The position numbers and the translations under genes are program-made. Of a stretch of 38,007 nucleotides of DNA, positions 29,357 through 37,402 are shown one piece after another (position 1 is the stretch's first letter; each line of letters begins with the position of its first letter). Under the pieces are notes generated by a model. It saw nothing but the letters and a program-made list of their open reading frames with translations. It ran no database searches and was not told where the DNA came from. The stretch spans positions 1 through 38,007 of the forward strand of contig VBDV01000119.1 in NCBI GenBank assembly GCA_005882765.1, read 5' to 3'. This DNA comes from Chloroflexota bacterium (lineage in GTDB: Bacteria; Chloroflexota; Limnocylindria; P2-11E).

Positions 29357-30292
29357 CTAGAGGAACCATTCGCCCCGGCCAGCGAGCCGTTCTCGGGCAC
29401 TGATCACGGCACCCAGCATGCCGACATCGCGACCGAGGCCGGGCGGCACCAGGCGTACCGCGTCCGCGGCAACACGGAACGCACGTGTGTCGATCGCGCG
29501 GCGCATCGGCTCGAGCGTGTGCGCGGGCTCGTGCTCGGCGATCGACCCCCCGATGACGATGAGCGACGGATTCAGGCCGTTCACGAGCGTTATCGCGAGG
29601 TTTCCGAGCGCTGCTTCGGCGCGCGCGAGGATCGCGACGGCGCGCGAATCGCCCGACGCCGCGGCGGCGTAGACGCGCGCCGCATCGTCGACGCCATAGG
29701 CCTCCGCGAGAAATCGGCCGGCGGCGAGTGACTCGACGCAGCCGTAGCTGCCGCAGCCGCAGCGCGGTCCCTCGAGCGCGACGGGCCAGTGGCCGATCTC
29801 GCCCGCGATGTTGCTGACCCCGCGAAGCATCCGGCCGCCGCTCACGAGCGCGCCGCCGATCCCGGTGGAAATGGTCACGTAGACGAAATCGCGCACGCCC
29901 TTCGCGGCGCCCGCCACCCCCTCGCCGATCGCGGCCATCACGGTGTCGCGATCCAGGAACACAGCGTCAATTCCGAGCGCCTTCGCGAGGCCCTCCGCCA
30001 AGTGGACGTCGGCGAAGCCGTTTATGTTCGGAGCGTCGTAGACGATCCCCGAGAGGTGGTTGAGCGGACCGGGAGCCGAGCACGCCGCGCCGGCGAGCTC
30101 GCGAGGGGTCGTCCCCATCGCGTCGAGCGCGGCCCGTGAGCTCTCGGCGATCGCGGCGATGACGTCCGCCGCGCCGGTCCGCGGCGTCGGCCGCTCGTCG
30201 CGGGCGACGATGCGCGGGATCGGGTGCTCGTCGCGCGCGATGACGCTCCGGATATTCGAGGCGCCGAGATCGATGCCGAGGTAGAGGCTCAG
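29357..30292 (-). CDS. ROK family sugar kinase (glucokinase-like; apparent CTG start)
   Basis: Frame extends beyond the listed ATG (30118) to LYLGIDLGASNIRSVIA at the N-terminus; GEIGHWPVALEGPRCGCGSYGCVESLAAG zinc motif. Confidence 0.9.
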   Translation of the reverse strand: MSLYLGIDLGASNIRSVIARDEHPIPRIVARDERPTPRTGAADVIAAIAESSRAALDAMGTTPRELAGAACSAPGPLNHLSGIVYDAPNINGFADVHLAEGLAKALGIDAVFLDRDTVMAAIGEGVAGAAKGVRDFVYVTISTGIGGALVSGGRMLRGVSNIAGEIGHWPVALEGPRCGCGSYGCVESLAAGRFLAEAYGVDDAARVYAAAASGDSRAVAILARAEAALGNLAITLVNGLNPSLIVIGGSIAEHEPAHTLEPMRRAIDTRAFRVAADAVRLVPPGLGRDVGMLGAVISARERLAGRGEWFL

Positions 30293-31989
30293 ACCCTCGG
30301 GAGCTTGCCCGCGAGCTCCGGCGCCTGCAGTGCGTTCGTGTCCCCACCAAACACCTGCTGCTGGGCCGCCCTGTAACCCTTCTTCGCTTTGTCCTTGCCG
30401 AACGCGCGCTCGGCATCCTCGTAGATCTGTCGCACCAGCGTGGCCAGATACGGCACGGCCTGGTGCTCGTCGAAGCCTTCGCGCTCGAGTGCCGCCGCAT
30501 CGATGAGGTCATCCACGACCGGCAACGGCCGATCGATCGGGTCGGCCTGCTCGTCTACACGCATGAGGAGATTCGCGAGACGCGTCTCGATCTTGCCCTT
30601 GCCGTAGCCACCGCTGTTGTATTCGACGAGCAGCGCATTCGAGAGCGAAGCGAGCTTTCCCGTTTTGCTCGCTGCCGCGCTCGCGGGTTCGATGCGCGCG
30701 ATCGGCGTCGGCGTCTCATCGCGCCGGAAACGGCCCAGGAACCCACCCTTCTTCTTTTCGGCGGTCGCATCCGCGGCGGCCGACTGTGGCGGCGGCGCCC
30801 ATTCGTCAGCGCGCGACGGCACCGCCTTCGTCGCCGTCGATTCCTGCTGCGGCGCGGGGGCACCCCAGGGATCGGCGTTCGCCGGCTGCTCCTTCGGCTT
30901 GGCGCTCGGGGCCCAGGCGTTCGCTGGTTTCTCGGTCGACGCTGGTGGCGGCGTCGTCCAGGATTCGGGCGGCCTGCCTCCGCCGGGCGCGCGCCACCAA
31001 TCCTTTGGCTCCTGCGGGGGCGTCTCTTTCGTCGCGGGCGCGGGCGTCTGCGGTTGCGGCACGTTCGCGGCGGGTCCCGGAGCAAACAGACCTGACAGAG
31101 ACGACAGCCTGTCGTCGACCGCCGGAGGGACCTCGACCGCCGGCGGAGGCGGTTCAGGCACAGGGGCGAAGCCACCCATGCGCTGCGCGATCTCGTTTTG
31201 CAGGTCCTCGCGGATCGGGGGTGGCGGAGAGACCTGTTCGGGCTGCGCTCGCTGCTCCCTCGGCGCCTCAGGGGTCGGTCGCGACGGCGCGGTGCTGCTC
31301 GACCAATCCGGGGTCGGTCGCGCAGCCTCCTCGTGCGCATCGGGCGGCGGCCACGCTTCGGTCGCGGGAGGCGGCGGCAGAGGTTCCGGCGGCGGAGCGG
31401 GCTCAGGAGCCGCGTACGGCGCCGGTCGCTCGGCGGGGCGATTCTCGGCCGGGGACAAGCCCTCGATGACCCCGTCCTTAACGAGGCCGGACAGAAGAGT
31501 CAGCGTCTGCATCTTTCCGAGGCGGAGCTGCTCGGCGATCGCGGCGACATCGCGCTCGCCATTGACGGCAAGTAGCGCCCGCCAGCGGTCGGGCGTGAAC
31601 GTGACCGCGCCCTGATCGGCGGCCTTCTCGGAGAGCCGGAAGCGCATCCGGTCGTCGGGTATCGACTCGCGAATCGTCGCGATCCGATCGCGCGCCTCGG
31701 CAGCCCGCTTCAGGAGAGAGACAAGATCTCCGGCTTCGAGGTTTGCTTCGGGCGCCGATTCCCATGGCGTGAACTCGAAATCGGCCTGCGAGATCGCAAA
31801 GATAGCGCCGAGGGCGTTCTCGCCTCCCTCGCCATCCATGACCGCCGCGACGAGGCGTCCACCAGCAAAGCCGAGGGCACCGACCTTGGCGTCGCCTCGT
31901 ACCTGGAGCTCCCCTGTCTTCGAAGTGCCTGCGAGGAGACCGATGACTGATTCGAGCGGAAAGTCGCTCGTGGAGCCCCGAAGGGTCAC
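30289..31989 (-). CDS. DUF4388 (PatA N-terminal-like) protein with long Pro-rich linker
   Basis: MTLRGSTSDFPLESVIGLLAGTSKTGELQVRGDAKVGALGFAGGRLVAAVM... then a roughly 200-aa low-complexity Pro/Ala region. Confidence 0.75.
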   Translation of the reverse strand: MTLRGSTSDFPLESVIGLLAGTSKTGELQVRGDAKVGALGFAGGRLVAAVMDGEGGENALGAIFAISQADFEFTPWESAPEANLEAGDLVSLLKRAAEARDRIATIRESIPDDRMRFRLSEKAADQGAVTFTPDRWRALLAVNGERDVAAIAEQLRLGKMQTLTLLSGLVKDGVIEGLSPAENRPAERPAPYAAPEPAPPPEPLPPPPATEAWPPPDAHEEAARPTPDWSSSTAPSRPTPEAPREQRAQPEQVSPPPPIREDLQNEIAQRMGGFAPVPEPPPPAVEVPPAVDDRLSSLSGLFAPGPAANVPQPQTPAPATKETPPQEPKDWWRAPGGGRPPESWTTPPPASTEKPANAWAPSAKPKEQPANADPWGAPAPQQESTATKAVPSRADEWAPPPQSAAADATAEKKKGGFLGRFRRDETPTPIARIEPASAAASKTGKLASLSNALLVEYNSGGYGKGKIETRLANLLMRVDEQADPIDRPLPVVDDLIDAAALEREGFDEHQAVPYLATLVRQIYEDAERAFGKDKAKKGYRAAQQQVFGGDTNALQAPELAGKLPRV

Positions 31990-33071
31990 CGCAACGCTGC
32001 CTCGGTCTGCTTGTCGAAGACGTGAAGCTTCTTGAGATTCAGCCCCACGCGCAGCGTCTGACCGGGCTTGGTCTGCGTCTGCGTTCCGACCCGCGCGATG
32101 AAGTTCGTTGTGTCCGCCGAGAGCAGGAGCTGCAGCTCGTTACCGAGAAATTCGACGACCTCGACCTTCGCGTCGAGCGGAAGCTGCCCGTCCTGCCGTT
32201 CGGTCGCCATGTCGTTGATGTCCTCAGGTCGGATCCCGAGGATCACGTCGCGGCCGACCGCCTCCGCGGCCTTCCCGCTCAAGGGTGCCTTGAAGAATCC
32301 AGCGTCGGCGACGACCTGGCCGTTCGATCCGGTCACCTTCGCGGGAAAGAAGTTCATCGACGGCGAGCCGATGAATCCCGCGACGAAGAGGTTCGCGGGC
32401 CGCTCGTGCAGCGTTTCTGGTGTATCGAGCTGCTGCAGCTTCCCGTCGTTCATGACGGCGATGCGATCGCCCATGGTCATTGCTTCGACCTGATCGTGGG
32501 TGACGTAGATCGTCGTCCGGCGAATGCGTTGATGAAGCTGCTGCAGCATCGCGCGGGTTTGGATGCGCAGCTTCGCGTCGAGGTTGGAGAGCGGCTCGTC
32601 CATGAGGAACACGGCGGGCTCGCGCGCGATCGCACGACCGACCGCGACACGCTGGCGCTGGCCACCCGAGAGCTCCTTCGGCTTGCGCTTGAGGAGCTGA
32701 CCGATCCCGAGCATCTTGCCGACCTCGTTCACCCGTCGATCGATCTCCTGCTTGGGCATGCCACGCAGCTTCAGACCGAAGGCGATGTTGTCGTACACGC
32801 TCATGTGGGGGTAGAGCGCGTAGTTCTGGAAGACCATGGCGATGTCGCGATCCTTCGGCGGAACGTCGTTCACCACCCGCTCGCCGATGCGGATGTCTCC
32901 GGTCGTCTGCTCCTCGAGGCCGGCGAGCATCCGCAGTGCGGTCGTCTTCCCGCATCCGGAGGGTCCGACCAGGACGAGGAACTCCGAGTCGCGCACGGCC
33001 AGGTTCAGGTCGTTCACCGCGACGAACTCGCCGAAGCGCTTGGTGACGTGGTCGTAGGTGACGGTTGCCAT
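31986..33071 (-). CDS. ABC transporter ATP-binding protein, MalK/UgpC/MsmK type
   Basis: VGPSGCGKTTALRMLAGLE, LSGGQRQRVAVGRAIAREPAVFLMDEPLSNLDAKLR plus C-terminal TOBE-like region; start trimmed to MATVTYDHV. Confidence 0.93.
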   Translation of the reverse strand: MATVTYDHVTKRFGEFVAVNDLNLAVRDSEFLVLVGPSGCGKTTALRMLAGLEEQTTGDIRIGERVVNDVPPKDRDIAMVFQNYALYPHMSVYDNIAFGLKLRGMPKQEIDRRVNEVGKMLGIGQLLKRKPKELSGGQRQRVAVGRAIAREPAVFLMDEPLSNLDAKLRIQTRAMLQQLHQRIRRTTIYVTHDQVEAMTMGDRIAVMNDGKLQQLDTPETLHERPANLFVAGFIGSPSMNFFPAKVTGSNGQVVADAGFFKAPLSGKAAEAVGRDVILGIRPEDINDMATERQDGQLPLDAKVEVVEFLGNELQLLLSADTTNFIARVGTQTQTKPGQTLRVGLNLKKLHVFDKQTEAALR

Positions 33072-33143
33072 CTCGCCGCAAGTATGTCGCAGCGCCGCCA
33101 AGCGGGCACGTCGCCTGTTAGCCCGCTCGGCCCGGCGGCCTCG

Positions 33144-33665
33144 TTACGGAAGGAGCCGAGTGGGCGGAATGGCCGCCGGCCACGAAAAAGGCGGCGAGAA
33201 GGTCACCCGGACGGCGCCCGGCGTCGAGAGCGCCTCGGACACGCGAAGACGGGCCAAAACTCGCAGCCGATACGCGACCGCACCGGCCGGCGGATCGAGC
33301 GCGATCTCGACCGTCGCGGTCTCGCCCGCACGGACGAAACTGGCGTCGGTCAATGCGAACTGGCGGGGCCGTCCGCTCGCGCGGTCGTACCAGGCGACCC
33401 GGACGAACGCCTCGCGGACGAGCGGGTCGCTTACCTCGAGCGTCGCCCGAAATCCCGCACGGCCGTCCGGCACCGGGACGAGCCCGCTCTCTATGCCCCA
33501 GGCTCGACCGCCGGGCACACCGACGACGAGCTGCGGCCCATCCGCGCCGAACGACCCGCGCGGCGTCGTGCGGCGGTACGGCGGTCCGCCGTCGGCGCTG
33601 GCCGATAGACCAACGACCGCCATCGCAACAAGTCCGATCACAAGCGAAACCAGGTTCTTTGACAT
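33144..33665 (-). CDS. Hypothetical secreted protein
   Basis: MSKNLVSLVIGLVAMAVVGLSASADGG signal peptide; balanced composition. Confidence 0.65.
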   Translation of the reverse strand: MSKNLVSLVIGLVAMAVVGLSASADGGPPYRRTTPRGSFGADGPQLVVGVPGGRAWGIESGLVPVPDGRAGFRATLEVSDPLVREAFVRVAWYDRASGRPRQFALTDASFVRAGETATVEIALDPPAGAVAYRLRVLARLRVSEALSTPGAVRVTFSPPFSWPAAIPPTRLLP

Positions 33666-33767: not shown

Positions 33768-36700
33768 TCAGGCGAGCTGCACGATCCAGGTCGCGATCTC
33801 ATAGGGCGCGAGATGGGCCCTCGCGAGGCTTCCATCAATGTCCAGCGGAGCCGCGGTTCGGATCACGTCAAGCCCGTTGTTCCCAAGGCTCTGGTCGCCC
33901 TCCCGGAGATCGACGGGGCGCGAGGCGCGGATGGCCCGGTCGAAGCGGAGGGTGCCGGACACCTCCTCACGTTCCGGGTTTGCGATCCGCACGACGAGGG
34001 TTCCGTCAGGCCCCGCGCGAAGCGAGGTCAGCACGAGCGGCGTGGCCGGATCGACGAAAGACATGAGCGAGCGCGGGCGACCATCCCCCAGAACGGCGAT
34101 CGGGGCCGACAGCCATTCGCGAACGATCCGTGCCGCCCGTGCGACATCGATCTGTTCGTCGATCGGCACGACCGTGTAGCGGTAGGAGCGACTCCCGATG
34201 CACTGCGCCGAAGGCGTCGCGAGCTCGGGCCCGGCGTGGCCGTGGCGCTCGGGAAGGTCGCCTCGCGAGAGGAAGCCCACGGCGCGCAGCAACGTGATCG
34301 CGACCGTGCCGCCATCGTGAAGGACCGAATACTCGCGCAGACCGTCGACCCCGACGGCCAGTCCCTTGGTCGCGCCCTTCACCGCCACGAAGTCGTGCAC
34401 GCATGCCTCCGAGGTTGGTGGTTCGATCCATCGGCGGCGAACCTCAAAGCGGTTGGAGCGCTCGAGCATCGCGAACGCGGCGCCGCATTGGTGTGTAAGC
34501 GCGCGGGTGCCGGTCTCGCACAGCGCGCGCAGGCGATGATCGCTCGCGCGGTTGTCGACCTCGAGCGTGACGTCGACTCGCCGCTCGCCCGCGTCGAGCG
34601 AGACTTCGGTCCTGACCGGGCAATCGACGAGCTCGGGTGAACGCGCGAGCCGATCGTCGCGCAATTGTGCCGGGAGTCGCAGGACGAATTCGACCGTCGC
34701 GGTCGCCCGATCGCCGGTAACGGAAGTCGCTCGCGTCCCAACGACGCCTTCGGAACCGACCGTGGGGCCGGCGTAGGAGTAGGTGTACTCGTCGCCACGG
34801 TCGCCCTCCGAGATCAGCCGGTTCTGCCGCCCGCCGCGGTCGCCGGTGGCCTTGTCGACGATGACGAAGCTCCCGTCGACATCGACCTCCACGCGCAGAA
34901 GGCCGTTTTCGATCGCGGCGTCGCCGTCCGCGCGGACCGCCGGCGCCGGGGCCACGACCACCGGCGCGAGGCCAAGCCCGTTCGAACGAACGCGCGTCGG
35001 GCGTCCGTCGATCGGCACAACCGTGTCGCGGGGCCACGGCAGCGAGTCCCAGAGCATCGCCCTGGTCCCCGGCCCGGCGAGCCGCTCGAGCAGCCGGCTC
35101 GCGAGCGCTGTCCCGCGCTCGCGGACATATTCGAAGCGTGGCGCCATATCGACGTCGTGGACCGCGTCGATCGAGCAGCCGCAGATCGAGTCGTGCGGGT
35201 GGTTTTGCAGGAGCATTCGCCAGAGATCGCGGAGCTCGTCGCGAGCGGTGCCACCGGTGAGCGCGTCGAGCGGCTCGCAACGCTCGAGAAGGAGCCGCTC
35301 GCAGGCGACGTTCTCCTGTTTGATCCACACGCGCGTTGAGTTCACGCCGCGGAGGATCGGGCGGTATCGGCCGCTCGCGATCTCACCGCTGACCCGATGT
35401 TGGAGCGCGGGCATCGCCGAGGCGAAGTCTTCGAGGCTCGCGATACGCACGTCGACGTTGGGGAACGCCTGCCGCATCTCGCGCACCGCCTCCGGCAGGC
35501 GCGCGTACGCCTCGACGTGGTCATCGCCGACCATCAGGAGGACCGCGTCGCCGTTCGCGTAGGGCGTGAGCCGATCGAGGATCTTGGCGGTCTTCTCCTT
35601 CACCCGGCGGCGCAGCGCGTCGGGACCCTCGCTTGCGGGGCCGACCAAGGGCAGCGCGTTGGAGTAGTGATCGACGAGGTGCGCCGCGCGAACGCGATCG
35701 CCGGAGGGCGCCTCCCACCAGAACTCGCTCCCGACCGATTCGCCCTCGTCCCCCATCCCGCGCGCGAAGACGTAGGTGTCGTATCCGAACGCGCGGAGGA
35801 TCTGCGGGAGCTGCGCCGGATGGCCGAACGGGTCGGCGACGTACGCCACGCGCGCGGCACGCCCGAGCTCGCCCGCGCTCCGGAGCCCCTCCTGAAGATT
35901 GCGGACGATCGATTCGCCGGAGACGAGGAGGAGGTCCGCGAGGACGTGCCACGGCCCGATGAGGAGCCGGTCGGACCGGACGAGCGCTTCGACTCGCGCG
36001 AGGTCAGCGGGGCGTTTCTCGAGATAGTCCTGGATCGCGATGGTCTGTCCATCGAAGGTGAATGAGCGAAAGTCGGGGTCGCGTTCGAGGACGTCCAGGA
36101 GGCGCGACACCATCGGAACGAGCCGGGCGCGATATCCCTCGAACCGCTCGTACCACTCGCGGTCCCAGTGCGTGTGCGGGATCACGAAGGCGCGCCAGCG
36201 GAGGCGTCGCCGGACGAGCGCGACCGCGCGCGGGGCGAGGAGCCCGAACACGATGCCGACGGTCATGCCGCCGAGCACGTCGAATGGGTAATGAACGCCG
36301 ACCACCACGCGCGCGAGCGCGCAAGAGATCCCGAGCAGGAGAACGGGCACGCGATAGCGCGGTGAGACGTACGCGAACGCGACGGCGGCACCCATCGCCA
36401 GGGCCGCGTCGCCTGACGGGAACGAGTACGACGAGGGATGCGCGATGACGGTCTCGGGCGCGGGCAGCGGTCCGGGAGCGTTCGCGAGAGCGTCGAACGG
36501 ACGCGGCCGGCGCAGGACGACCTTCGCGATCTCGGTGAAGGCCCACGAGGTGAGGATCGCGAGCACGACCGTGCCGGTCGCGGCGATCCCTCGACGGTTC
36601 AGCCCACGCGAGCGGAGAAGAAGGAACGCGAGGATCCACCAGAAGAACCCGTCCCAGTTCAAGTAGGTGAGGGCAACGGCGATGACCGAGGTCACGAAAT

Positions 36701-36770
36701 TCCGCTGCGCGGCGATCGCGAGGTAGAGCTGCGTGTCGAAGTTGCCGAGCGCGGCGAGAAGGTCGTTCAA
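33768..36770 (-). CDS. PAP2-family phosphatase fused to GH38 alpha-mannosidase / mannosylglycerate hydrolase-like domain
   Basis: N-terminal PAP2 motifs KVVLRRPRP, SFPSGDAA, ARVVVGVHYPFDVLGG. From about residue 200, GH38 motifs IPHTHWDREWYERF, DGQTIAIQDYL, LLIGPW, SGESIVRNL, ADPFGHPAQLPQIL. One uninterrupted 1000-aa frame. Confidence 0.88.
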   Translation of the reverse strand: MNDLLAALGNFDTQLYLAIAAQRNFVTSVIAVALTYLNWDGFFWWILAFLLLRSRGLNRRGIAATGTVVLAILTSWAFTEIAKVVLRRPRPFDALANAPGPLPAPETVIAHPSSYSFPSGDAALAMGAAVAFAYVSPRYRVPVLLLGISCALARVVVGVHYPFDVLGGMTVGIVFGLLAPRAVALVRRRLRWRAFVIPHTHWDREWYERFEGYRARLVPMVSRLLDVLERDPDFRSFTFDGQTIAIQDYLEKRPADLARVEALVRSDRLLIGPWHVLADLLLVSGESIVRNLQEGLRSAGELGRAARVAYVADPFGHPAQLPQILRAFGYDTYVFARGMGDEGESVGSEFWWEAPSGDRVRAAHLVDHYSNALPLVGPASEGPDALRRRVKEKTAKILDRLTPYANGDAVLLMVGDDHVEAYARLPEAVREMRQAFPNVDVRIASLEDFASAMPALQHRVSGEIASGRYRPILRGVNSTRVWIKQENVACERLLLERCEPLDALTGGTARDELRDLWRMLLQNHPHDSICGCSIDAVHDVDMAPRFEYVRERGTALASRLLERLAGPGTRAMLWDSLPWPRDTVVPIDGRPTRVRSNGLGLAPVVVAPAPAVRADGDAAIENGLLRVEVDVDGSFVIVDKATGDRGGRQNRLISEGDRGDEYTYSYAGPTVGSEGVVGTRATSVTGDRATATVEFVLRLPAQLRDDRLARSPELVDCPVRTEVSLDAGERRVDVTLEVDNRASDHRLRALCETGTRALTHQCGAAFAMLERSNRFEVRRRWIEPPTSEACVHDFVAVKGATKGLAVGVDGLREYSVLHDGGTVAITLLRAVGFLSRGDLPERHGHAGPELATPSAQCIGSRSYRYTVVPIDEQIDVARAARIVREWLSAPIAVLGDGRPRSLMSFVDPATPLVLTSLRAGPDGTLVVRIANPEREEVSGTLRFDRAIRASRPVDLREGDQSLGNNGLDVIRTAAPLDIDGSLARAHLAPYEIATWIVQLA

Positions 36771-37402
36771 CGCGAACGCAGGTGGCGCCAGATGAAGACG
36801 CCGACGCCGAGGACGATGAGGCCGACGACGATGTAGTCGAGACCGCGAAGCTGGTGTTTCAGGTCCTGCCAGTTATCGCCGAGGACCATCCCGGCCCACA
36901 CGAGGAGCATCACCCACGGCACGGCGCCGACGATCGAGAAGAGGAGGAACCGCCACAGGGACATGCGGGCGATGCCCGCCGGGACGGAGATGAACGTGCG
37001 CACGATCGGGAGCATCCGCGAGAAGAGCACAGTCAGGTCGCCCCAGCGGCGGAACCAGCGGTCCGCCGTTTCGAGGTCGTGTGTGCTGATCAGGACATAG
37101 CGGCCGTAGCGCTCGAGGAGCGGACGACCGCCGAACGCCCCGACCGCATAGCTGACGAGGGAGCCAGCGGTATTTCCAAGCACGCCGGCAAGCACCGCGC
37201 CCCAATACGTCCACTGCCCACCGGTCAGAGGCTCGATGACCCCTCTCGATACGCTCCACCCCGCGAACGGGAGGATGAGCTCCGATGGGATCGGGATCGC
37301 GGCACTTTCGATGGCCATCGCGATCACGACGCCGATGTAACCGAAACGACCGTACAACGAGTCGATGAAAGGCAGGACGAATTGGTCGACGGCCTCGATC
37401 AA
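36767..37402 (-). CDS. DedA family membrane protein
   Basis: ESAAIPIPSELILPFAGW, GNTAGSLVSYAVGAFGG, FSRMLPIVRTFISVPAGIARM; ATGA overlap with the PAP2-GH38 gene. Confidence 0.95.
   Translation of the reverse strand: MIEAVDQFVLPFIDSLYGRFGYIGVVIAMAIESAAIPIPSELILPFAGWSVSRGVIEPLTGGQWTYWGAVLAGVLGNTAGSLVSYAVGAFGGRPLLERYGRYVLISTHDLETADRWFRRWGDLTVLFSRMLPIVRTFISVPAGIARMSLWRFLLFSIVGAVPWVMLLVWAGMVLGDNWQDLKHQLRGLDYIVVGLIVLGVGVFIWRHLRSR

Follow-up and report, generated by a model that had tools for sequence, protein, structure and literature searches.

A PAP2–GH38 fusion gene next to dedA, conserved throughout one order of Chloroflexota

The fusion gene and its neighbourhood

The window analysed here (the whole stretch of 38,007 nucleotides, positions 1 to 38,007 of contig VBDV01000119.1 in assembly GCA_005882765.1) stems from a Chloroflexota bacterium and carries one long open reading frame in which two enzyme families are joined in a single protein (Table 1). 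Pfam detects the PAP2 phosphatase domain (PF01569) at residues 67–183 with an E-value of 1.9e-19 and 70.1 bits against a gathering cut-off of 27.2, followed by the catalytic domain of GH38 glycosidases (PF01074) at residues 194–455 (E-value 2.1e-35), the GH38 mid domain (PF09261, residues 474–564) and the GH38 C-terminal domain (PF07748, residues 620–831), all above their cut-offs; a further match to PF17677 in the C-terminal part of the GH38 half stayed below. These domain assignments bear out a preliminary description, made from the letters of the DNA, which had read the frame as one PAP2 and GH38 polypeptide, and all of the motifs it listed are present: K83-x6-R90P91, PSGD (118–121), R154-x5-H160-x3-D164, HTHWDREWY (199–207) and ADPFGH (312–317). 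In the source genome (2.75 Mb in 195 contigs), Pfam searches detect one PAP2 and one GH38 domain, both of them in this gene, as well as one BacA, a C55-PP phosphatase of the BacA type, elsewhere.

Table 1. Features of the PAP2–GH38 locus (coordinates of the window, residues of the fusion protein)
Feature	Position	Strand	Basis or remark
PAP2–GH38 fusion gene	33768..36770	-	1000 aa, TTG start
PAP2 lipid phosphatase domain with six predicted TM segments, residues 1–189	36204..36770	-	PF01569, AlphaFold helices, loop charges
PAP2 motif C1, K83-x6-R90-P91	36498..36524	-	alignment of the fused set
PAP2 motif C2, PSGD 118–121 (Asp in place of His in all fused copies)	36408..36419	-	
PAP2 motif C3, R154-x5-H160-x3-D164	36279..36311	-	alignment of the fused set
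Junction, residues 184–194, basic end of TM6 into first GH38 strand	36189..36221	-	AlphaFold; free of indels in 25 genomes
GH38 catalytic and helical mid domains, residues 192–565	35076..36197	-	PF01074, PF09261, Foldseek to 5kbp/2wyi
GH38 HTHWD, predicted zinc ligands H201 and D203 (SpGH38 H13/D15, PMC2815779)	36162..36176	-	alignment to 2wyh/3lvt
GH38 predicted nucleophile and zinc ligand D313 (SpGH38 D125)	35832..35834	-	alignment
GH38 predicted general acid/base D417 (SpGH38 D232)	35520..35522	-	alignment
GH38 H526 (predicted zinc ligand) and D527 (SpGH38 H351/D352)	35190..35195	-	alignment
GH38 C-terminal beta domains, residues 566–1000	33771..35075	-	PF07748; PF17677 below cut-off; model
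DedA/VTT gene, undecaprenyl-phosphate flippase family	36767..37402	-	PF09335, E-value 4.7e-22; stop overlaps fusion start (TTGA)
Divergent GT2-type glycosyltransferase, truncated by the contig end	37427..38005	+	weakly like glucosyl-3-phosphoglycerate synthase; full-length relative in L034
Small downstream protein, apparently secreted (hydrophobic N-terminus)	33144..33665	-	conserved neighbour, 11/19 loci
Sugar-ABC ATPase, UgpC/MalK type	31986..33101	-	PRK11650, 470.6 bits, over cut-off; conserved
ROK-family protein, sugar-kinase type	29357..30118	-	PF00480; conserved

The gene directly upstream of the fusion encodes a DedA protein (79.2 bits against the PF09335 cut-off of 33.9; 161.7 of 250 bits with the NCBIfam equivalog model for UptA). 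DedA occupies this position in 24 of 24 loci checked, and in many of them its stop codon and the start codon of the fusion gene overlap as TTGA, ATGA, GTGA or TGATG; here, DedA and PAP2 are separate genes with a 4-nt overlap and not one polypeptide. As far as the contigs allow, the downstream order is small protein, UgpC/MalK-type ATPase, DUF4388 protein, ROK protein, GAPDH and PGK, the DUF4388 protein (30289–31989, 566 aa, encoded between the genes for the ABC ATPase and the ROK protein) being found family-wide with a variable middle part. The divergent side reads GT2, a debranching-type hydrolase, GT4 and a universal stress protein. At one related locus (L034:776–5342), the genes for GT2, the debranching-type hydrolase (whose best match in the PDB is 7vma) and GT4 overlap, and these are kept beside the fusion across the family. 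The hydrolase resembles the archaeal-type glycogen debranching enzyme, and this conserved GT2, debranching-type and GT4 group may belong to another pathway. In the sister family DedA-PAP2-GH38 is retained, GT2 and the debranching gene are more distant, and the locus borders on a sugar ABC transporter; at one of its loci (L048:1699–4982) two adjacent genes for dynamin-like GTPases lie beside DedA-PAP2-GH38. Since no DedA, GT2 or debranching gene was found among the neighbours of the standalone GH38 loci of the class, this neighbourhood belongs to the fused form.

Junction, distribution and origin of the fusion

In an AlphaFold model of the protein (pLDDT 93.6, pTM 0.91) the last transmembrane helix ends at residue 189 (about position 36204), and residue 192 (about position 36197) opens the first GH38 strand, which leaves a linker of about two residues between the PAP2 (1–189) and the GH38 (192–1000) halves. 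The helix (162–189) and the strand (192–201) are modelled with a pLDDT of about 95, in agreement with the earlier remark that there is almost no linker; the junction itself (36189–36221) lies slightly upstream of the place given for it before, near 36170–36190.

In every one of the 25 genomes whose contigs span the junction, the fusion is one open frame; these genomes represent two families of one order, including the sister family's G028, and the identity between fused proteins ranges from 90% down to about 48–50%. Across residues 178–210, a table of 26 loci from these 25 genomes contains no indel. The dN/dS values of 0.11–0.29 for PAP2, 0.03–0.29 for the junction and 0.07–0.27 for GH38 show that both halves and the junction are under purifying selection. 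Neither a split copy nor a stop at the junction, the two outcomes named in the preliminary description as speaking against a true fusion, was found among the relatives with the junction on the contig, and the fusion stands. Frame breaks do occur in G011 (L030/L049) and G016 (L024), inside the GH38 half near residues 450–480 and 587–607; lying away from the junction, they look like sequence errors or pseudogenes. An internal start for a separate GH38 protein was considered as well and rejected, as the GTG at V196 of some genomes is GTC or ATC in others and hence not conserved. That an assembly or frameshift artefact has joined two genes is virtually inconceivable: the junction was judged from assembled sequences, and 25 genomes from separate assemblies and studies, at 48–90% identity, carry it without an indel. 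Because these independent assemblies agree, a junction error in the source assembly is very unlikely, and the fusion is confirmed as real.

A match to the fusion protein is present in 25 of the 28 genomes of the family and 26 of the 29 of the order; the three genomes lacking one are incomplete (66–76%) and belong to two other genera. In the remainder of the class (177 genomes), GH38 and PAP2 matches are separate proteins, and a search of 400 genomes of the phylum with the PAP2 profile (E ≤ 1e-12) revealed, among the matches listed, no PAP2–GH38 fusion outside the order. Similarly, when the best 80 of 462 relatives are compared, the PAP2 half is aligned only in members of the fused group. In a GH38 tree of 57 rows, calculated by a quick method with SH-aLRT support only, the 15 fused GH38s form one clade (support 100) on a long stem of 0.74, apart from the standalone GH38s of the class and from the second GH38 that G028 itself possesses. 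These data are best explained by a single fusion event that became fixed in the lineage ancestral to one order of Chloroflexota. The publicly named relatives are uncultured Chloroflexi, and the depth in cm stated in many sample names suggests soil profiles as their habitat. One genome, G022 (L018, L027), harbors a second copy of the fused type, cut by the contig end and 61% identical to the query, which is either a paralogue or a contaminant. A link to phages or defence was rejected, as searches gave neither viral relatives nor a PADLOC match. In other Chloroflexota families, outside the class (L160–L178), several PAP2 domains sit at the C-terminus of frames of about 600–850 aa; by eye these look like kinase-PAP2 fusions of the diacylglycerol-kinase type and are unrelated to GH38.

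Active sites of the two halves

The PAP2 half was described beforehand as complete-looking, a view that its Pfam match and its C1 (KX6RP) and C3 (RX5HX3D) motifs support, one relative lacking the lysine of C1, but from which C2 departs. The canonical PSGH is absent from all fused proteins and replaced by PSGD in 24 of 25 and by PSSD in one, while R90, P91, P118, S119, D121, R154, H160 and D164 are invariant in the 25 genomes. All standalone PAP2 proteins of the class whose C2 was read have histidine at position 121, as do the best PAP2 matches of the phylum that were examined (PSGH or PSAH), so that, within our sample, the aspartate sets the fused lineage apart. The single PSSD protein, that of G021 (L019/L042), is also alone in having glycine at K83, with its GH38 half intact, and the combination suggests that the phosphatase is weakened in this lineage.

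When compared to the characterized membrane phosphatases PgpB, YodM and LpxE (PDB 4px7, 5jki and 6ebu), the fusion shares the membrane PAP2 fold and the C1 and C3 motifs, but these proteins are without a GH38 domain and most of them contain PSGH. An exception is LpxE of Aquifex aeolicus (6ebu), the best PDB match of our PAP2 profile, which reads PSGD like the fusion, a replacement remarked on by the authors of that study, and hydrolyses C55-PP, lipid A and PGP (PMC6581854). Since this active enzyme carries PSGD, the histidine of C2 is not strictly defining and PAP2 membership rests on other features; by analogy, its exchange for aspartate need not mean a loss of activity. The H163A variant of PgpB retains 27% of its activity on C55-PP and 0.09% on PGP (PMC7413402), a hint that loss of the C2 histidine might restrict the enzyme to pyrophosphates. 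This notion is weakened by the PGP hydrolysis of the Aquifex enzyme.

For the GH38 half, residue roles were mapped from the Streptococcus enzyme SpGH38 (PMC2815779). The predicted zinc ligands H201, D203, D313 and H526 and the putative acid/base D417 are invariant in an alignment of 45 sequences and, where covered, in the fused set. In Foldseek, the matches to the structures 5kbp and 2wyi extend across more than 900 columns, with TM scores of 0.71–0.72 by query length. Like SpGH38 (2wyh) and the Enterococcus faecalis protein (5kbp/3lvt), the GH38 half shows the full-length fold, all zinc and catalytic residues and no signal peptide; unlike it, these proteins are soluble and lack a membrane domain, and identity in the structure alignment is about 25%. 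The earlier label 'MngB-like' proved to be loose: MngB belongs to the same family, but the match of the fusion to the MngB equivalog PRK09819 (NCBIfam) reaches 380.9 bits and thereby falls far short of the cut-off of 1138, no PTS partner was seen among the conserved neighbours, and among solved structures the GH38 alpha-mannosidases of Enterococcus and Streptococcus come closest. Judged by these residues, the GH38 half is most likely a zinc-dependent retaining alpha-mannosidase of the active type.

Membrane topology and possible function

The PAP2 half is modelled with helices at residues 2–21, 25–55 (broken), 59–86, 120–135, 137–157 and 162–189. C1 is located at the end of helix 59–86, C2 at the start of helix 120–135 and C3 between the last two helices, which places all three motifs on one side. 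The sixth transmembrane helix begins at the active site (D164) and meets the GH38 strand 28 residues on; the phosphatase site and the GH38 half, at opposite ends of this helix, would therefore lie on opposite faces of the membrane, whatever the direction of insertion. Lysine and arginine residues are concentrated on the GH38 side (per protein 3.8 in loop 2, 1.8 in loop 4 and 3.9 after the last helix) and scarce in the long loop that flanks the active site (0.4), and there is precedent among PAP2 enzymes for an active site facing outward (PMC7413402, PMC12826051). Because of these charges and this precedent, GH38 is predicted to be on the cytoplasmic face and the phosphatase site outside, and the GH38 half has no signal peptide, as expected for a cytoplasmic enzyme. 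The proposal in the preliminary description that the protein could couple the removal of phosphate to that of mannose on one lipid-linked or phosphorylated glycoside fits poorly with sites on opposite faces, and the DedA partner points to recycling of the undecaprenyl carrier instead; coupling on one substrate at one face thus appears unlikely from the model.

We infer the substrates and the purpose of the two halves, and any communication between them, from this framework. In the account that we favour and hold to be reasonably probable, the protein is an outward-facing phosphatase of the C55-PP type, paired with DedA, that carries a membrane-tethered cytosolic alpha-mannosidase, the two halves working on different faces and probably on different substrates. 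The PAP2 half would convert C55-PP, or a similar lipid diphosphate, to C55-P at the outer face, DedA would flip the monophosphate back inward, and the GH38 half would cut imported or locally made alpha-mannosides on the cytosolic side, close to both the membrane and the sugar transporter; the fusion would provide co-location and a 1:1 supply near the membrane. Carrier recycling is the best reading of the PAP2 half because DedA proteins have been reported to flip C55-P and because naturally occurring fusions of DedA with PAP2 (COG0586) are known, which have been read as combining C55-PP dephosphorylation and flipping (PMC10127716, PMC9876793). As in those fusions, DedA and PAP2 are genetically tied here, via the gene overlap, but DedA has a gene of its own and the fusion partner of PAP2 is GH38. 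The sugar-ABC ATPase and ROK genes conserved downstream also count in favour of this account. Against it count the DedA score below the UptA cut-off, the conserved GT2, debranching-type and GT4 neighbours with their possible role in another pathway, the PSGD motif, which would not fix the substrate given the action of Aquifex LpxE on lipid A and PGP as well, and, as regards a sole role, the BacA-type phosphatase, owing to which PAP2 is not the only candidate.

That PAP2 is mainly a membrane anchor for a cytosolic GH38 enzyme, its phosphatase activity being vestigial or lost, might be read from the C2 replacement in all fused copies where standalone PAP2s of the class keep histidine, from the G021 protein that also lacks the C1 lysine and from the presence of BacA. 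We think this unlikely, since an anchor would have no need of the invariance seen at R90, P91, S119, D121, R154, H160 and D164, the dN/dS of the PAP2 half is low as given above and the PSGD-bearing LpxE is active (PMC6581854).

Turnover of dolichol-linked glycans involves a PAP2-type dolichyl-diphosphatase and a cytosolic GH38 mannosidase. As a bacterial parallel, both halves of the fusion might serve one pathway acting on a lipid-linked mannoside or its products, PAP2 freeing the carrier phosphate outside and GH38 demannosylating lipid-linked or released glycans inside. The strict fusion with its fixed junction throughout the order, the adjoining glycosyltransferase genes and the DedA partner are consistent with this, but the active sites lie on opposite predicted faces, the closest GH38 relatives of solved structure are soluble alpha-mannosidases, and polyprenyl-phosphate-mannose is beta-linked and as such not an expected GH38 substrate, so that we regard a shared pathway as improbable. 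It is likewise doubtful that such a two-faced polypeptide, with carrier recycling outside (together with DedA) and demannosylation inside, would serve the turnover or quality control of a mannosylated envelope glycan.

Highly improbable is a role in which GH38 degrades a compatible solute of the mannosyl- or glucosylglycerate type made by GT2 and GT4 while PAP2 dephosphorylates a phospho-intermediate: GT2 resembles glucosyl-3-phosphoglycerate synthase (62.9 bits), GT4 mannosylglucosylglycerate synthase (54.9 bits) and GH38, weakly, MngB, but all three scores are far under the equivalog cut-offs (262, 640 and 1138), the PAP2 site is predicted outside whereas such intermediates are cytosolic, and the neighbouring hydrolase resembles a glycogen-debranching enzyme.

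Our literature searches for PAP2 together with GH38 and for PSGD returned nothing relevant, and no characterized enzyme of this build was found in the literature searched, in keeping with the preliminary description, which knew of none. The order-wide architecture is apparently undescribed, built from two known enzyme kinds and accompanied by a clade-wide change in a phosphatase motif; it is not a new kind of system, but a transmembrane fusion for which we found no precedent and which an entire order has preserved intact. It adds a second lineage of PAP2 proteins with aspartate in place of the C2 histidine, useful for understanding the role of that residue, and should be of interest to envelope biologists. 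If active, the protein would be an example, open to experiment, of a glycosidase linked to the recycling of a lipid carrier.
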